The notes below the pieces were generated by a model that saw only the letters and a list, made by a program, of their open reading frames with translations, made no database searches and was not told where the DNA came from. Shown here in pieces: positions 9,007 through 35,007 of a DNA stretch of 64,000 nt. The DNA is taken from NCBI GenBank assembly GCA_934476515.1, contig CAKSNZ010000006.1, positions 1-64,000 of the forward strand, read 5' to 3'. The translations under genes were made by a program, and so were the position numbers. The DNA is from an uncultured Ruminococcus sp. Lineage in GTDB: Bacteria > Bacillota > Clostridia > Oscillospirales > Acutalibacteraceae. Position 1 is the stretch's first letter. Each line of letters opens with the position of its first letter.

Positions 9007-9741
9007 TTATCTTACAACAACTTTGCATTTTGCAGTTTTTTTACTACCATCGGTAGTTTTGCAATATACATAGCTTGTACCTTTTCTAACAGCTTTAACC
9101 TTGCCGTTAGAAATTTTTAGAATCTTTCTGTTAGAAACAGACCACTTAACACTTTTGTTATCTGTTGTTGCCGGAGAAACAGTAGCCTTAAACTTATAAG
9201 TCTTGTTTCTCTTTAGTGCTAGTGTATTTCTGTTTAGCTTAACAGAAGAAGCCAATCTCTTTGTTACAGTAGAAATTTTTAAGTCTTTGTAATGACTGTG
9301 AGCACCTGTTCTGCCATAGTTAGTGCCATCAGTAGCGTCAAGACAAATTAGGTTAAGTGAAGTTTTCATAGAACCTTTGCCTGTAATCTTAAACTTCATA
9401 GAAATAAGGTTAGTTGTTTTCTTGAAGTTCATAGGTTTCATAACGCAAACTGCGTTAAATCTGATTTGTCTTGTAAGGTTAGAATTATAAATGAAAGAAC
9501 CTTTCTTCATTTCTGAACTGTAAGATACAGATTTTAGTGAAAGACCACTTGAATAGTTAACGTGAGCTTGAATATCTTCCATTAATTTTGGTGCTTTAAT
9601 TCTGTATGTAACAGTTACAATCTGTCCCTTGCTTACTGCTTTACCGTTAAGTGTAGTTGCCTTTGCACTTGCAGGGAAACCAACAATAAACATAGTTGAA
9701 AGGATAATAACTGTTAGCATTGATGAAATAATTTTTTTCAT
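9007..9741 (-). CDS. Secreted protein with cohesin-like domain and BIG2 domain
   Basis: 244 residues. Residues 1-28 are a Sec signal ending ASAKA. Residues 30-150 look like the cohesin/carbohydrate-binding beta-sandwich: GQIVTVTYRIKAPKLMEDI, then VNYSSGLSLKSV, then LISMKFKITGKGSMKTSL match the strand pattern of cohesins (beginning, first sheet, closing strand). Residues 165-244 are a bacterial Ig-like group 2 domain (VKLNRNTLALKRNKTYKFKA, KWSVSNRKILKISNGKVKAV). It is strongly basic. By family it could bind dockerin or polysaccharide outside the cell; cohesin assignment is moderate, BIG2 is good. AAGGAGG lies 10 nt upstream of ATG. Single gene with own promoter and terminator. Confidence 0.7.
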   Translation of the reverse strand: MKKIISSMLTVIILSTMFIVGFPASAKATTLNGKAVSKGQIVTVTYRIKAPKLMEDIQAHVNYSSGLSLKSVSYSSEMKKGSFIYNSNLTRQIRFNAVCVMKPMNFKKTTNLISMKFKITGKGSMKTSLNLICLDATDGTNYGRTGAHSHYKDLKISTVTKRLASSVKLNRNTLALKRNKTYKFKATVSPATTDNKSVKWSVSNRKILKISNGKVKAVRKGTSYVYCKTTDGSKKTAKCKVVVR

Positions 9742-14502: not shown

Positions 14503-14507
14503 AAAAA

Positions 14508-14538
14508 TCCCACAACTATTTTTACTTAGTTGTGGGAT
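14508..14538. terminator. Bidirectional terminator between convergent genes
   Basis: Arms ATCCCACAACT / AGTTGTGGGAT flanked by A and T runs on both sides. It serves the small plus-strand gene and the minus-strand importer operon. Confidence 0.8.
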
Positions 14539-14543
14539 AAATT

Positions 14544-15842
14544 TTAGTCTTTTCTAATGAAATAATCTTTCAAACATTTTGCAATAAATAATGCAGTAAT
14601 AAAGAAGATTATCTGTAAGAATGTAAAGCTACTGTCACTTATGAAAGCTACAATTAAAGAAATAATTGTGATTACAATAAATGATGCAGTGATAAGATAC
14701 ATAGCAACTTTACTTTCTTTTCCTACTTGATTAAATAGGTAGTAGGTAAAGAAGAACAGTAGTAGGATAATCGGTAAGAAAATCACACCTAAAACCAATG
14801 TACCGTTATATAGATTTAAGAAGTATGGATTGCCACCCATTAATGTTGAAGTTTCTGTCTGTATAGTAGAGGACAATGTATTTAACATATGTGAAATGCT
14901 AAATAAGTTTTCCTTATCAATATAGTTATATACAAGGTGGAAATCTTTTAAAGCTATGTAGCACAATACAAAAATAGCTAAAGGTAAAATTAAGAAAATT
15001 ATTAACCTGATTATTAGTGACGGTAAGTTGCTTGTTATGAATTTCCCTAAATAATTTTCACTATGCTTTCCCTTAATAAATCTATAAGTAGAGCCTAGGT
15101 TATTGAGCCATAATCTGATTAAATATACTGATGTAATAATAGTTAAGATTAATGAAATAATTGCAGTGAAATCATTAACTGCTAAATTCTTTTCATCAAA
15201 ATTAACTCTCTGAAAATTATCAAAACTTAAGAAGTAGAATTGTCTTCTGGAGTCACTACCGTCAATACAGCTTACAGCAGTTAGCTTTTCTTTTTCATAA
15301 TTACTTACAGAGGTGTAGTTAATATAAACTCTCTCTTTATTGTCCTTAAAAAAGTCATTAACAGTTCCCTTTTTATCATCAAAAACACCTGTGATACGGT
15401 ATCTTTCATCATTCATTATAAAGGTTTTACCTATGGGTGACTTGCCCTCAGCAATTTTTTTACCGAAGGTTTTGCTGACTACTGCAGTTTTGCTTTTTTC
15501 CTTTTCCATAACATTTGTGATACCCTCATCAGTATAAGAAATGTTATTGTACTTTAGGTAGTTGTGATTGATTAGTACCGGTGTAATTTTTGTGTTATTT
15601 ACAGTAGTTGTACTAAGCTCACTGCAAAATGAAGTATCCTTAAAATCTTCATACTTTTTTACTAGTTTTTCATAGTCCTTAATAGTAGCCTTGCTTTTGC
15701 CCTTTGATGCTACATTTTGAATACTGATAACTGTGTTTTTGTTTTGGCTTTTATAGTTGTTGATTACATATGTAAATGTTGAGATAGAAGTAAGCAATAG
15801 TAAAGCAACAACTATGAAAGATATAATTTTTGTTTTACTCAT
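14544..15842 (-). CDS. MacB-core/FtsX-like membrane protein
   Basis: 432 residues. One N-terminal membrane helix (about 7-27), an extracytoplasmic domain (about 30-220) and then five hydrophobic helices (about 226-246, 275-300, 345-370, 380-402, 408-428). The outer domain contains VSKTFGKKIAEGKSPIGKTF and RYRITGVFDDKKGT, the hallmark of the MacB periplasmic core domain of ABC permeases involved in export or mechanotransmission. A usual MacB/FtsX permease has three further helices, here five. Its start overlaps the stop of the adaptor-like gene by 4 nt, so it is the fifth gene of the importer operon. No ATPase is adjacent. Function unknown. Confidence 0.7.
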   Translation of the reverse strand: MSKTKIISFIVVALLLLTSISTFTYVINNYKSQNKNTVISIQNVASKGKSKATIKDYEKLVKKYEDFKDTSFCSELSTTTVNNTKITPVLINHNYLKYNNISYTDEGITNVMEKEKSKTAVVSKTFGKKIAEGKSPIGKTFIMNDERYRITGVFDDKKGTVNDFFKDNKERVYINYTSVSNYEKEKLTAVSCIDGSDSRRQFYFLSFDNFQRVNFDEKNLAVNDFTAIISLILTIITSVYLIRLWLNNLGSTYRFIKGKHSENYLGKFITSNLPSLIIRLIIFLILPLAIFVLCYIALKDFHLVYNYIDKENLFSISHMLNTLSSTIQTETSTLMGGNPYFLNLYNGTLVLGVIFLPIILLLFFFTYYLFNQVGKESKVAMYLITASFIVITIISLIVAFISDSSFTFLQIIFFITALFIAKCLKDYFIRKD

Positions 15843-16264
15843 AATACATCTGCCTTTACTAAAACTTGTTCGCCTATTTTTAAATCTTTGTCACTATCTA
15901 TAATTGCCAAAAAGCCGGTGTCTTCTCTAGTTATTTCAGTATATAAACCGTTTTGTTTAAGTATGTCAACCGGCTTTTTGGCTACAATGTAGTTGCCATC
16001 TGTGTTTTTGATTACATAATAAACTTCACCATTATGTACTGAAGAAGTTGGTATTAATGTATTACCACCTTGTGGGTCGTAGTAGGTATCGTCATCATCA
16101 TCAATTAAGTATCCTGTATTGGTTGTTGCTACTGTAACAGTAGGGTAAAGTAAAGCATCTATCTTAGTTGACAGATAAGTTAACCCACCAATTACAAGGA
16201 AAAAGATTATTGCAAAAGCCACAATACCTTTTTGAAATTTTACACGCATATTTTTCTTTTCCAT
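15839..16264 (-). CDS. Single-pass adaptor-like protein (membrane fusion protein C-domain-like)
   Basis: 141 residues. A membrane helix at about 13-34 is followed by an extracytoplasmic part with an acidic DDDDD run at about 55-59 and then LIPTSSVHNGEVYYVIKN ... DLKIGEQVLVKADVL. The latter resembles the membrane-proximal C-terminal domain of HlyD/MacA adaptors (IP-SSV..NG.YYV then GD.VVV), but the hairpin and lipoyl parts are missing. It starts 2 nt after the MalG-like permease stop with GAGGATA in front, and overlaps the next gene by 4 nt. Possibly couples the MacB-like protein to an outer partner. Family similarity is weak and is my reading. Confidence 0.5.
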   Translation of the reverse strand: MEKKNMRVKFQKGIVAFAIIFFLVIGGLTYLSTKIDALLYPTVTVATTNTGYLIDDDDDTYYDPQGGNTLIPTSSVHNGEVYYVIKNTDGNYIVAKKPVDILKQNGLYTEITREDTGFLAIIDSDKDLKIGEQVLVKADVL

Positions 16265-16266
16265 AG

Positions 16267-17100
16267 TTATATCCTCGAAAATGAACTTCTTACATCTTTT
16301 TCACCTAAGAAGTAGATGATTAAAGCCGGTATCATAAACATTACACCACAAGCAAAAATAATATTTACATCAGCAGTATCAACAGAAAGTGAAACTGATA
16401 GTGGGTACTTTGCTTTGTCTGTAAAGTAAATCAACGGTTGTTCAACAACACCCCATGTATCTACAAATGTCAGTAGTGCAAGGGATACTAAGCCACCTCG
16501 TATTTGAGGTAGAATAATCTGGAAGAATATTCTAAAATATGATGCACCGTCAACTCTTGCAGCTTCTATTGATGAGTCGGAAATATATCTTACACTTTGT
16601 CTTAGTAAGCAAATTCCAAATGCTGAGAATGTACCCGGAAGAATAATGCTCATAACATTGTTAAGTAAATCTAACTTTTGATACATAAAGTAGCTAGGCA
16701 CAAGTGTTACCTGAATAGGTAAGATAAGGAATATCATATATACAAAGAATAGCTTATCTCTACCGGGAAATTTTAGCTTACCGAAAGCAAAGGCAGCTAG
16801 GGAAGATACAATTAACTGACCTACAACTGTAGGTACTGTAATTAATACAGAGTTCCAAAATTCCTTTAAGTAGTCACCGTTTCTAAAGAACACCTTGTAG
16901 AATTGTTCAAGTGAAAAATGTTCCGGTATCAGTTTAAAGGATGCATATTGACCGGTTGTAAAGTCAAGCATAGAGGAAACCTCTTTACTTGACATAAATG
17001 AGCTTATAACCATAAACACAACCGGCATTAAGAAAATAAGTGTCAGCACAATTAGCAACAAATATTTTAACGATTTTTTTACTGTAAATTTCTTTTTCAT
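16267..17100 (-). CDS. Carbohydrate ABC importer permease, MalG type
   Basis: 277 residues, six membrane helices. The cytoplasmic EAA loop is clear: SIEAARVDGASYFRIFFQII followed by LPQIRGG at about residues 188-213, the coupling site for the ATPase. Length and N-terminal topology match CUT1 sugar importer MalG/UgpE subunits. It lies 7 bp after the MalF-like gene. The ATP-binding subunit is not in the operon and would be a shared MsmX-type ATPase elsewhere (inference). Confidence 0.88.
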   Translation of the reverse strand: MKKKFTVKKSLKYLLLIVLTLIFLMPVVFMVISSFMSSKEVSSMLDFTTGQYASFKLIPEHFSLEQFYKVFFRNGDYLKEFWNSVLITVPTVVGQLIVSSLAAFAFGKLKFPGRDKLFFVYMIFLILPIQVTLVPSYFMYQKLDLLNNVMSIILPGTFSAFGICLLRQSVRYISDSSIEAARVDGASYFRIFFQIILPQIRGGLVSLALLTFVDTWGVVEQPLIYFTDKAKYPLSVSLSVDTADVNIIFACGVMFMIPALIIYFLGEKDVRSSFSRI

Positions 17101-17107
17101 TTTATCC

Positions 17108-17959
17108 TCATTCTAAATAATCTGACTTTCTCTCATACATAAAGAATGCTAACATAATACCAATGAAAATAATTGACATTACAATGGCTGATGAAGATAG
17201 CTGAGAGTAGTTAAAGTTGTTGTAGTTGTTGTTTATAAAGTTCTGTAGAAAGTAAACATTCTCATTTGGGTATGTACCAAACAGTGAGAATGACTCTCTG
17301 AACATTCTAAATGAATTGATAACTGCCATTAAGAATACAAAGAATGTTGTTGGAGTGATAAGTGGTAAAGTGATTTTTACTGTTGTTTTAAAGCTACTTG
17401 CACCCTCAAGATAAGCACTTTCGTGAACTGACTTTGGTAGATTGGCAAGTCCTGCAGTAAAGAGTATTACACAGAAACCACAGTTTTTCCATATGTAAAT
17501 CAGGATAATCATTACCATAGAAAATCCACTGCTAAAGAAATGTACTGTATCAAAACCAAGTGAATTTAGAATATTGTTGATTACACCATAATCGTTAAAT
17601 AGCATTTGCCAAATATAAATTAGGGATGCTGCCGGAATTACAATGGGCATTAAATATGCACTTCTAAAGAAAGAAGTTATTTTCTCAAAACTATTTAAAA
17701 ATTGAGCAATCAAGAAAGAAATAATCATCAGTAGCGGAATTGCTACAACTGTAAAAATCATAGTATTCTTTAGTGCATACAGAAATGCTTTGTTCTTAAA
17801 AATCGCTATGTAGTTATCCGGTCCTACAAAATGCCCACCTGACATTAAGCTGTTGTATATACACATTAAGTATGGAATAGCATAAAAAACTGTAATACCT
17901 ATTAATGATGGCAACAAAAATAAATATGCCCATACCGTTTGTTTTTTCTCAAATTTCAT
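17108..17959 (-). CDS. Carbohydrate ABC importer permease, MalF/UgpA type
   Basis: 283 residues, six membrane helices. EAA loop ESAYLEGASSFKTTVKITLP at about 180-200. VWAYLFLLPSLIGITVFYAIP at the start is the typical first helix of UgpA-like permeases. It partners with the MalG-like subunit to form the sugar channel. It lies 8 bp after the solute-binding lipoprotein gene. Confidence 0.88.
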   Translation of the reverse strand: MKFEKKQTVWAYLFLLPSLIGITVFYAIPYLMCIYNSLMSGGHFVGPDNYIAIFKNKAFLYALKNTMIFTVVAIPLLMIISFLIAQFLNSFEKITSFFRSAYLMPIVIPAASLIYIWQMLFNDYGVINNILNSLGFDTVHFFSSGFSMVMIILIYIWKNCGFCVILFTAGLANLPKSVHESAYLEGASSFKTTVKITLPLITPTTFFVFLMAVINSFRMFRESFSLFGTYPNENVYFLQNFINNNYNNFNYSQLSSSAIVMSIIFIGIMLAFFMYERKSDYLE

Positions 17960-17967
17960 AGTACACC

Positions 17968-19440
17968 TTATTCATATAAATAGATTTTTGTTTTACTGTT
18001 TAGGTTTGCAATAAAATTGTCAATAGAGATTTTGTCCTGCAAATAATCATCAACTAATGAGCCGATTACCTTGTCATTGTAGTAACCGTCTCTGATTTCA
18101 TAGGTGTTGATACTGTTAATGTAGGATGCGTATTTATCCATAAAACTATCTTGTTCCTTAATTTCATCAAAATCGGTACCACCATAAGCAGAACTACTTA
18201 AGGAATTATTTATCGCATCTTTGTTAACGGTAATGTTATATGTATCACCATAAGCAAAACTACTTAAGGAATTATTTAGCGCATCTTTGTTAACTGTTAT
18301 ATTGTATGTGTCACCGTAGGTTGAATCAAAGGTAATGAATCTTTGCATTCTTTCACCTAAAGAGTATTTGATAAATTCAAAGGCTTTTTCTTTTTTGTTA
18401 CTATTATTGTTTATCATAAAGCCACAACTGATAGTAGCTCTTGATTGATTTTCCTTTTCTGTAATACCACTGGTAAATGTTGTTTGGGTTGAGCTATAAC
18501 CTGACATATGGGATAAGCTAAAGTTGTATGGTGTGTAGATACCTGTTTCTTTATCGGTAGTACCCTTAGAAAGTAAACATTCACTTTTGCTTAGGTCTTT
18601 AGTAGTTTTAGTATCTGCAATAGATTTCTTTACTAACTTTTTAAGAGACTCTATAGTGCTTTTAAATTTTTTAGTTTCAAAATCAGTTGTATAGTCCTCT
18701 TTGTTAATGTTGTCATTAATGTACTGCAAGATAATTTCTTTTGAACTGGAATAGCTATCTGTTAAGCTAAGGTTATTGCTATTGTTAGCAAATTTCTTTA
18801 GCTTGTTGTTAATATTGCTATAGGTTAGCCTTGTGTTGGTAGCAAGGTCATAGTCTTTAAATAAAGCTGAGTTTGAGATATAAATATCGGGTTCAATCAG
18901 CATAGGCATCATATACCTTTTGCCTTTGAAAACACCTGTATCCATAAGTGTATTGTCATAATCATCAAGGCTAATTTTTCTTTCACTTTTATCATTCTTT
19001 AAAAGTATGTTCATATCAGCAAAAGCACCTTGATTAATCAGCTTTGAGACTGGTAGTTCATTATCCAAAATAATAATATCAGGGCCACCACCTGCCATTA
19101 TTTCTGTTGACATTTGTTGTATCATTCTATCTCGTGACGAGAAAGAAACAACCTTTACACTGTATTCACCCATTTTGTTTAAGGAACAGTAGTTGTTATA
19201 CATATGTACCATATCAAGTAGGGGATAGTAGAATTTAGTGTCTTGGTCATAATGTAAATCCTTATTGTTCGGGTCAACATAAGTGTAGATTGTAACTCTG
19301 TCACTACTGTTTAGTTCTTCTTGGTTTAGGTTTGTGCCTTTGGTGATGTATTCATCACTGTTTGAACAGGCGACTGTTGTAAACAAAGTACAAACTAAAA
19401 GTACAGACAAAATCATTTTTGAAAAAATTCTTCTTTTCAT
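17968..19440 (-). CDS. Extracellular solute-binding lipoprotein of sugar importer, with internal duplication
   Basis: 490 residues. Signal with lipobox TVAC (Cys25) anchors it outside. GGGPDIIILDNELPVSKLINQGAFADM (about 117-143) is the usual ligand-cleft segment of family 1 sugar-binding proteins, and the C-terminal third has the SLGERMQRFITF-type helices. Around residues 375-420 a 22-residue block (YGDTYNITVNKDALNNSLSS) occurs twice in tandem, a 66-bp DNA duplication. First gene of the operon, so it defines the substrate; the substrate itself cannot be told. Leader and promoter lie in 19441-19590. Confidence 0.85.
   Translation of the reverse strand: MKRRIFSKMILSVLLVCTLFTTVACSNSDEYITKGTNLNQEELNSSDRVTIYTYVDPNNKDLHYDQDTKFYYPLLDMVHMYNNYCSLNKMGEYSVKVVSFSSRDRMIQQMSTEIMAGGGPDIIILDNELPVSKLINQGAFADMNILLKNDKSERKISLDDYDNTLMDTGVFKGKRYMMPMLIEPDIYISNSALFKDYDLATNTRLTYSNINNKLKKFANNSNNLSLTDSYSSSKEIILQYINDNINKEDYTTDFETKKFKSTIESLKKLVKKSIADTKTTKDLSKSECLLSKGTTDKETGIYTPYNFSLSHMSGYSSTQTTFTSGITEKENQSRATISCGFMINNNSNKKEKAFEFIKYSLGERMQRFITFDSTYGDTYNITVNKDALNNSLSSFAYGDTYNITVNKDAINNSLSSSAYGGTDFDEIKEQDSFMDKYASYINSINTYEIRDGYYNDKVIGSLVDDYLQDKISIDNFIANLNSKTKIYLYE
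18193..18318 (-). repeat. 66-bp tandem duplication inside solute-binding protein gene
   Basis: Two adjacent copies with a 66-bp period, starting near 18193 and 18259, in frame (22 residues). They differ at a handful of positions, and the sequence on the third side diverges after the GTGTCACCGTAGG border. Confidence 0.85.
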
Positions 19441-19590
19441 AATAATATTACCTTTCGTATAATCACGATAATTATATCACTAAATATGGATAAATTGTGT
19501 ATAATTATTAATAAAATTCGAACAAAATGCAATTTTGTGAGATGTTATGAAAAATGATAAGATCTTTTGTGCAAAAGAACGGAATAAAAA

Positions 19591-19616
19591 AGCCACCCTG
19601 TTTTACCAGAGTGACT
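19591..19616 (-). terminator. Terminator of M23 peptidase gene
   Basis: Arms AGCCACCCTG / CAGAGTGACT (with G-U pairs); on the minus strand TTTTTTATT follows. Confidence 0.75.
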
Positions 19617-19647
19617 TTTTTAGATATATAGAGTTTTTTACTTGTTA

Positions 19648-34746: not shown

Positions 34747-34759
34747 AGTGGTGATATTA

Positions 34760-35007
34760 AAAAGGCTTTGATTGGGAGAAGTATTCATCTTGATTTTGTC
34801 AGAGAGTAAACGCCATTGGCTGAAAGCGTTTTCAAAGGATTTTTGAAGAAATGCACCCATGAGCTGACAAAGGGAAAGTAGTATCTTTGTCCGTATTTCT
34901 GCGTTAAGGATTTGAGGGTTGCTTTGATTTTTGTTTATAAATCGGAAAGACCAAACTCAGGTGGAACCACGATATATTCGTCCTGTACTTTTGTACAGGG
35001 CTTTTTT
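34760..35007 (+). promoter_or_regulatory. Cysteine-specific T-box riboswitch
   Basis: Leader RNA that reads uncharged tRNA-Cys. The stem I AGAAGTA element is at about 34777, the specifier codon is probably TGC at 34852-34854 in GAAATGCACCC, and the T-box core GGTGGAACCACG lies at 34960-34971. It ends in an intrinsic terminator at 34982-35007 (CCTGTAC-TTTT-GTACAGG then six T) that would compete with the antiterminator. Downstream genes are cysE and cysS, matching the Cys specifier. Confidence 0.92.

Follow-up and report, generated by a model that had tools for sequence, protein, structure and literature searches.

We analysed positions 1 to 64,000 of contig CAKSNZ010000006.1 (assembly GCA_934476515.1) from an uncultured Ruminococcus sp.; this whole stretch of 64,000 nucleotides is called the window. 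It carries an operon in which genes for a sugar-type ABC importer are followed by genes for two proteins related to exporter parts, a periplasmic adaptor and a MacB core protein. Five open reading frames (ORFs) on the minus strand (14544-19440) encode proteins of 490, 283, 277, 141 and 432 aa in transcription order (Table 1); the spacers measure 8, 7 and 2 bp, and the last two genes overlap by 4 nt. A first-pass annotation of this DNA had given the same strand and spacing, which the ORF coordinates match exactly, and its naming of a solute-binding protein (SBP), MalF-like and MalG-like permeases and a MacB core agreed with the Pfam matches (SBP_bac_1, BPD_transp_1 twice and MacB_PCD).

A terminator-like hairpin (14538-14507), called as such on both strands, lies just past the last stop codon; three such hairpins were found in the region against 2.0 expected in shuffles. 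Its position makes it probable that the five-gene unit stops at this hairpin and includes no ATPase gene, and none was found in the window operon by the ORF list and the terminator scan. On the other side the SBP gene is parted from an M23 peptidase gene by 207 bp. With this hairpin after the last gene, and these 207 bp with a ribosome-binding-like site before the first, the operon looks like a closed five-gene unit.

Table 1. Features of the importer operon, in positions of the window.
Feature	Position	Strand	Evidence
Solute-binding lipoprotein, 490 aa, first gene	17968..19440	-	SBP_bac_1 (PF01547) 2.6e-10 in Pfam
MalF/UgpA-type permease, 283 aa, EAA-type loop	17108..17959	-	BPD_transp_1 1.1e-11; EAA by eye
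MalG/UgpE-type permease, 277 aa, EAA loop	16267..17100	-	BPD_transp_1 2.5e-11; EAA by eye
Reduced periplasmic-adaptor protein, 141 aa: transmembrane (TM) helix and membrane-proximal domain	15839..16264	-	
MacB-core membrane protein, 432 aa: TM1, MacB_PCD, stalk/TM2, TM3-TM6	14544..15842	-	MacB_PCD 1.4e-13
Intrinsic terminator-like hairpin behind last gene	14507..14538	-	12-pair stem and T run
Intergenic region 5' of first gene, 207 bp	19441..19647	-	GAAAGG ribosome-binding-like site and TATAAT box, both by eye

Importer proteins and exporter-related proteins

The first three products have the composition of a CUT1 importer, an SBP_bac_1 lipoprotein with two BPD_transp_1 permeases. The start of the SBP reads as a lipobox-like ..TVAC by eye. 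The best NCBIfam model was UgpA (6.4e-25) for the MalF-like protein, and GlcU (3.1e-24) and UgpE (4.8e-24) matched the MalG-like protein, all under cut-off; no useful NCBIfam name was obtained for the 141-aa or the 432-aa protein. The window SBP contains a 22-aa tandem duplication in frame, seen as a 66-bp repeat at 18176-18307, and SBP ORFs of 531-539 aa were found in relatives (loci L019-L021). In the wider family described below many SBPs are 640-870 aa long and carry an N-terminal domain that matched beta-propellers in a profile search; the best match (6.9e-31) was a designed propeller, and natural propellers followed from 3.9e-20. This unusual fusion was seen at L137, L139-L142, L144, L225, L242, L256 and L259.

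The 141-aa protein had no Pfam match. Its AlphaFold2 model (predicted local distance difference test score 83.7) has a helix at residues 2-39 followed by a beta domain, and the protein keeps the N-terminal TM helix and membrane-proximal domain of an adaptor, as the first-pass annotation had suggested in comparing it with the C-domain of HlyD/MacA adaptors. Lipoyl, beta-barrel and hairpin domains were absent by both Pfam and the model. A Foldseek search gave weak E-values (best 0.039). It was more informative than a comparison of the adaptor profile with PDB sequences, in which a single match arose by chance. The available part of PMC4446572 describes the C-terminal, membrane-proximal part of adaptors as involved in transporter recognition, and that of PMC5985334 reports that stimulation of the SpMacB ATPase was lost when SpMacA lacked its cytoplasmic region and TM helix. 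The window adaptor retains just those kinds of parts, a membrane-proximal domain and a TM helix. Relatives keep their lipoyl domains, with up to 480 residues between the lipoyl halves; Biotin_lipoyl_2 was matched by 7/8 relatives' adaptors of 361-371 aa, four of them at or above the cut-off.

The 432-aa protein contains the MacB periplasmic core domain and keeps a MacB-like fold. Its AlphaFold2 model (score 86.3) shows a helix at 3-33, the core domain and then long helices at 215-260, 273-299, 340-376, 378-402 and 407-431, the same number of C-terminal helices, five, as first counted from the translation. PF02687, the FtsX permease domain, had no match in this protein at E 1; it was detected in all four exporter permeases compared, whereas none of six module relatives had it. 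A coupling-helix motif between TM2 and TM3, by our own definition RxxE[IVL][GA]....[IVLM][GA], was present in 8/8 exporter permeases and in 0/60 members of the MacB-core family, a set that includes 12 database proteins and one contig-end gene with no genomic context in view. Columns reaching 2.5 bits made up 45/180 of the core domain, 14/42 of the outer TM3-TM4 loop (YIPxDNIFDIS) and 1/14 of the cytoplasmic loop, and mean conservation differed modestly (1.98, 2.16 and 1.78 bits, respectively).

Linkage, divergence and ATPases among relatives

Scanning of genome contigs in the genus with the MalG profile alone yielded 42 loci, two of them from one strain, 5AMG. The adaptor gene stood next to MalG in 42/42 and the core protein after the adaptor in 41/42; at L094 the contig ends before the core gene, and at L078 the core copy is cut. 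Where contigs extend far enough, MalG is preceded by MalF and by between one and four SBP genes. Among 60 genomes of the genus, 15 had both this MalG type (E 1e-60) and the core protein (E 1e-10), 44 had neither, and one (G020, with its match at a contig end) had the core protein only, so that the two agreed in 59/60. The first-pass annotation had raised the question whether the five genes stay together. They do: within the reach of the contigs, none of the 42 loci departs from this order, and the last two genes, far from lying mostly apart from the first three, were tied to them (42/42, 41/42 and 59/60). A chance or hitchhiking neighbourhood would be in keeping with the variable flanks and with nothing else; the same gene order repeated among different flanks and in many families rules out chance linkage, and we regard this explanation as extremely improbable.

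At the order level, full-length adaptors used as query matched 155/394 genomes at E 1e-3, and MalF/MalG genes stood beside the adaptor in 28 of the 30 best loci (L120 is cut; none were seen at L130). At the class level 35/391 genomes matched at E 2e-38 or better, a lower bound because some modules score less and G001, the genome nearest to the window, was itself missed by the adaptor profile. Importer genes were present in 29 of the 30 best class-level loci, the remaining one (L179) running off its contig; two genomes are common to both lists of 30. A search of the phylum (398 genomes) added five further module loci, together with 23 weaker loci (L199-L221) without MalF or MalG within about 1.5 kb, so the adaptor profile also reaches ordinary adaptors. 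Twenty loci picked from the class ranking comprised 6 modules and 14 others, of which 7 were adaptor-ATPase-FtsX sets and one (L237) had a MalG-like fragment and an ATPase about 5 kb off. Another 19 regions gave 17 modules; no importer genes were seen at L257 or at L246, where the adaptor lies at the end of a contig. The search that led to all these loci started from module-like adaptors, so the counts are no measure of where adaptors are placed in general, and its weaker matches include ordinary exporters. By our own count of checked loci, importer-linked adaptors occur in 24 families, two (L136, L147) without a detected core protein. The window operon is a pared-down form of this wider module. 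L138 (genome G110) holds a tandem pair of modules, and the adaptor ORF of the second is shortened.

In 16/42 genus loci a divergent response-regulator gene lies upstream, accompanied in 15 of these by a histidine-kinase gene, and two-component genes were also found near six wider modules (L137, L140, L146, L225, L254, L255). These neighbours would suit a flux or occupancy sensor, in which the adaptor-core pair would signal to a two-component system how active the importer is. No such gene pair is in view in the other 26 loci, some of them on short contigs, and the window has the M23 peptidase gene in that place instead; we consider a sensor unlikely.

Genome G001 was used for comparison with the window. 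MalF and MalG were 99.3% identical (ratio of nonsynonymous to synonymous divergence, dN/dS, 0.02), the 432-aa protein 94.0% (0.10), the 141-aa protein 87.2% (0.23) and the SBP 89.1% of aligned codons (0.17). Given the divergence of MalF and MalG, partial correlations over 38 of the 42 loci were 0.72 for adaptor and core, 0.44 for SBP and adaptor and 0.49 for SBP and core, each reached in 0/1000 permutations. Longer adaptors went with longer SBPs (rho 0.76) in 31 of 41 wide loci, from automatic picks in which incomplete parts were dropped and the longest SBP was taken. Synonymous divergence from G001 (locus L018) was 0.30-0.39 for the SBP, 141-aa and 432-aa genes, about 0.16 for MalF/MalG, 0.14-0.22 for the flanking GH25, LuxS, M23 and SpoU genes and 0.04-0.06 for glycolytic genes, a mosaic that perhaps reflects recombination of exposed parts.

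An ATPase gene was found in the operon beside the core protein in 6/38 wider module regions (L226, L242, L251, L254, L255, L256), some of the 38 being cut by contig ends. All six of these ATPases carry OB_MalK and TOBE_2, and neither domain was found in the two exporter-type ATPases compared. Outside the operon, an MsmK-like ATPase was present in 12/12 module genomes searched (that of G032 is cut); these ATPases share 54-65% identity with one encoded near module L137. The G001 copy has the MalK domains, and some 32 kb separate it from the operon. The first-pass annotation had stressed the lack of an ATPase: this holds for the window operon itself, but is nothing unusual where the importer part is concerned, as an MsmK/MalK-like ATPase is encoded elsewhere in the 12/12 module genomes searched, and six relatives have a MalK-type one within the operon.

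The retained MacB-like fold and the relationship of the parts to MacAB-type systems could also point to a device for export or mechanotransmission that acts independently of the importer, has only the operon in common with it and relies on a borrowed ATPase. The FtsX domain and coupling motif are missing, the in-operon ATPases of relatives are of importer type and the linkage to MalFG is strict, and such a device is very improbable. An ordinary MacAB exporter that lacks its ATPase was ruled out by the MalK-type ATPases in the operons of relatives and the absence of PF02687 and of the coupling motif.

Three further features were noted elsewhere in the window. At 9007-9741 a secreted protein with a weak cohesin match (under cut-off) and a Big_2 domain is encoded beside glycolytic genes. 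A short ORF at 1048-1587, with the C-terminal part of a phage integrase and a sub-threshold IrrE-like stretch, is probably a mobile-element remnant. A T-box leader (34759-34988) lies upstream of serine acetyltransferase-like and cysteinyl-tRNA synthetase-like genes, both named by eye.

A proposed role and its alternatives

We consider it fairly likely that the operon encodes a CUT1-type importer, served by a shared ATPase, with an outer-face accessory complex derived from a MacAB exporter without its motor. An accessory to MalFG is favoured over an exporter by the linkage to importer genes, by the importer type of the ATPase, by the lack of the coupling motif and by the conservation seen on the outer face. 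The SBP lipoprotein and the MalF/MalG pair would be powered by the MsmK/MalK-like ATPase encoded elsewhere. We infer that the accessory proteins form a physical complex in which, on the pattern of MacAB, the membrane-proximal domain and TM helix of the adaptor pair with the MacB-core protein, and that these proteins evolved from a MacA-MacB exporter of the YknXYZ type whose motor was lost. The pair would sit on the outer face of MalFG. Its most likely task there would be to hold or orient the SBP with its ligand at the mouth of the permease, the pair itself being moved passively as the importer goes through its ATP cycle. A clamp or docking collar is the preferred reading. The first-pass annotation had offered either a regulator or outer-face clamp of the importer or a separate wall-sensing device; the linkage appears to fit the former and to disfavour the latter. 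In the window lineage the adaptor would have been cut down to its membrane-proximal core, while in relatives the lipoyl and hairpin domains would reach outward.

Another possibility is a tripartite pump working inward, with oligosaccharide reaching the SBP and permease through a tube that the adaptors build across the peptidoglycan. If the up to 480 residues between lipoyl halves formed one straight hairpin, each arm would measure about 36 nm, and SBPs with a beta-propeller-like N-terminal domain are found where adaptors are long. Among published adaptors, the available part of PMC5985334 gives the MacA stem as 70 A and reports that YknX binds peptidoglycan. The window adaptor cannot form a tube because barrel, lipoyl and hairpin are missing, yet the module persists. 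We hold a tube to be unlikely as the general role, and possible for relatives with long hairpins.

Several observations weigh against the docking collar as a general account. The core protein was found in only 16/60 genus genomes, and its gene is split over two overlapping frames at L071. It stops after TM4 in most genus relatives, the alignment showing two more helices in the subgroup of the window, and adaptor length spans 135 to 757 aa among relatives; because both vary, one fixed mechanism may not fit all. At L136, L147, L148, L151, L170, L175, L178 and L252 the gene after the adaptor had no match to the core profile, and at L136 an SBP gene directly follows the adaptor. The SBP copy of the window may be altered, since about 58 residues of the G001 protein are missing, in frame, in the alignment. 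The partial correlations, the length correlation and dN/dS were not corrected for phylogeny. Finally, G001 has a second, ordinary importer (L268) in the order SBP-MalF(500 aa)-MalG, next to a gene that looks amylase-like by eye, and for this reason maltodextrin import cannot simply be assigned to the five-gene operon. The available part of PMC6231298 reports that R. bromii L2-63 utilises maltose to maltotetraose and leaves glucose unused. Starch uptake as the role of the operon was dropped in view of the amylase-like neighbour of L268.

CUT1 importers with a shared ATPase are known from MsmEFGK and from MsmX of B. subtilis. The module resembles them in its SBP lipoprotein, its two BPD_transp_1 permeases with EAA loops and its MalK-type ATPase elsewhere or in the operon; it differs in adding two exporter-related proteins and, in many relatives, a beta-propeller-like domain on the SBP. 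With MacAB-TolC, YknXYZ and Spr0693-0695 it shares the membrane-proximal domain and N-terminal TM helix of the adaptor and the MacB core, stalk and TM fold. Unlike the MacB family it lacks a nucleotide-binding domain, PF02687 and the coupling motif and is linked to an importer, and the window adaptor has no barrel, lipoyl or hairpin domain. To our knowledge, YtrBCDEF of B. subtilis includes neither an adaptor nor an SBP_bac_1 lipoprotein. MCE importers (MlaD, Mce needle complexes) likewise combine an importer with an envelope-spanning protein assembly, but their proteins are not known to be related to those of the module and their substrates are lipids. Among the literature matches listed (titles and abstract starts, with subscription papers mostly outside and no bioRxiv preprints) no description of the combination was found, which supports the earlier view of it as unusual and as a candidate for an undescribed system.

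Each protein has a known fold; what is new is the combination, its breadth and the loss of the motor. A more far-reaching and doubtful idea is that of an efflux pump run backwards, in which MacA-type adaptors and a motorless MacB core would serve as outer tube and valve on a sugar importer and supply its permease with oligosaccharides from the far side of the Gram-positive wall. If true, this would define an importer class across Clostridia-like families, of which the window lineage keeps the inner collar only. A broad family that joins an adaptor and a MacB core to an importer is a testable system, and it suggests that exporter parts were reused without their motor. It would matter for annotation too, where these genes could readily be given efflux names.
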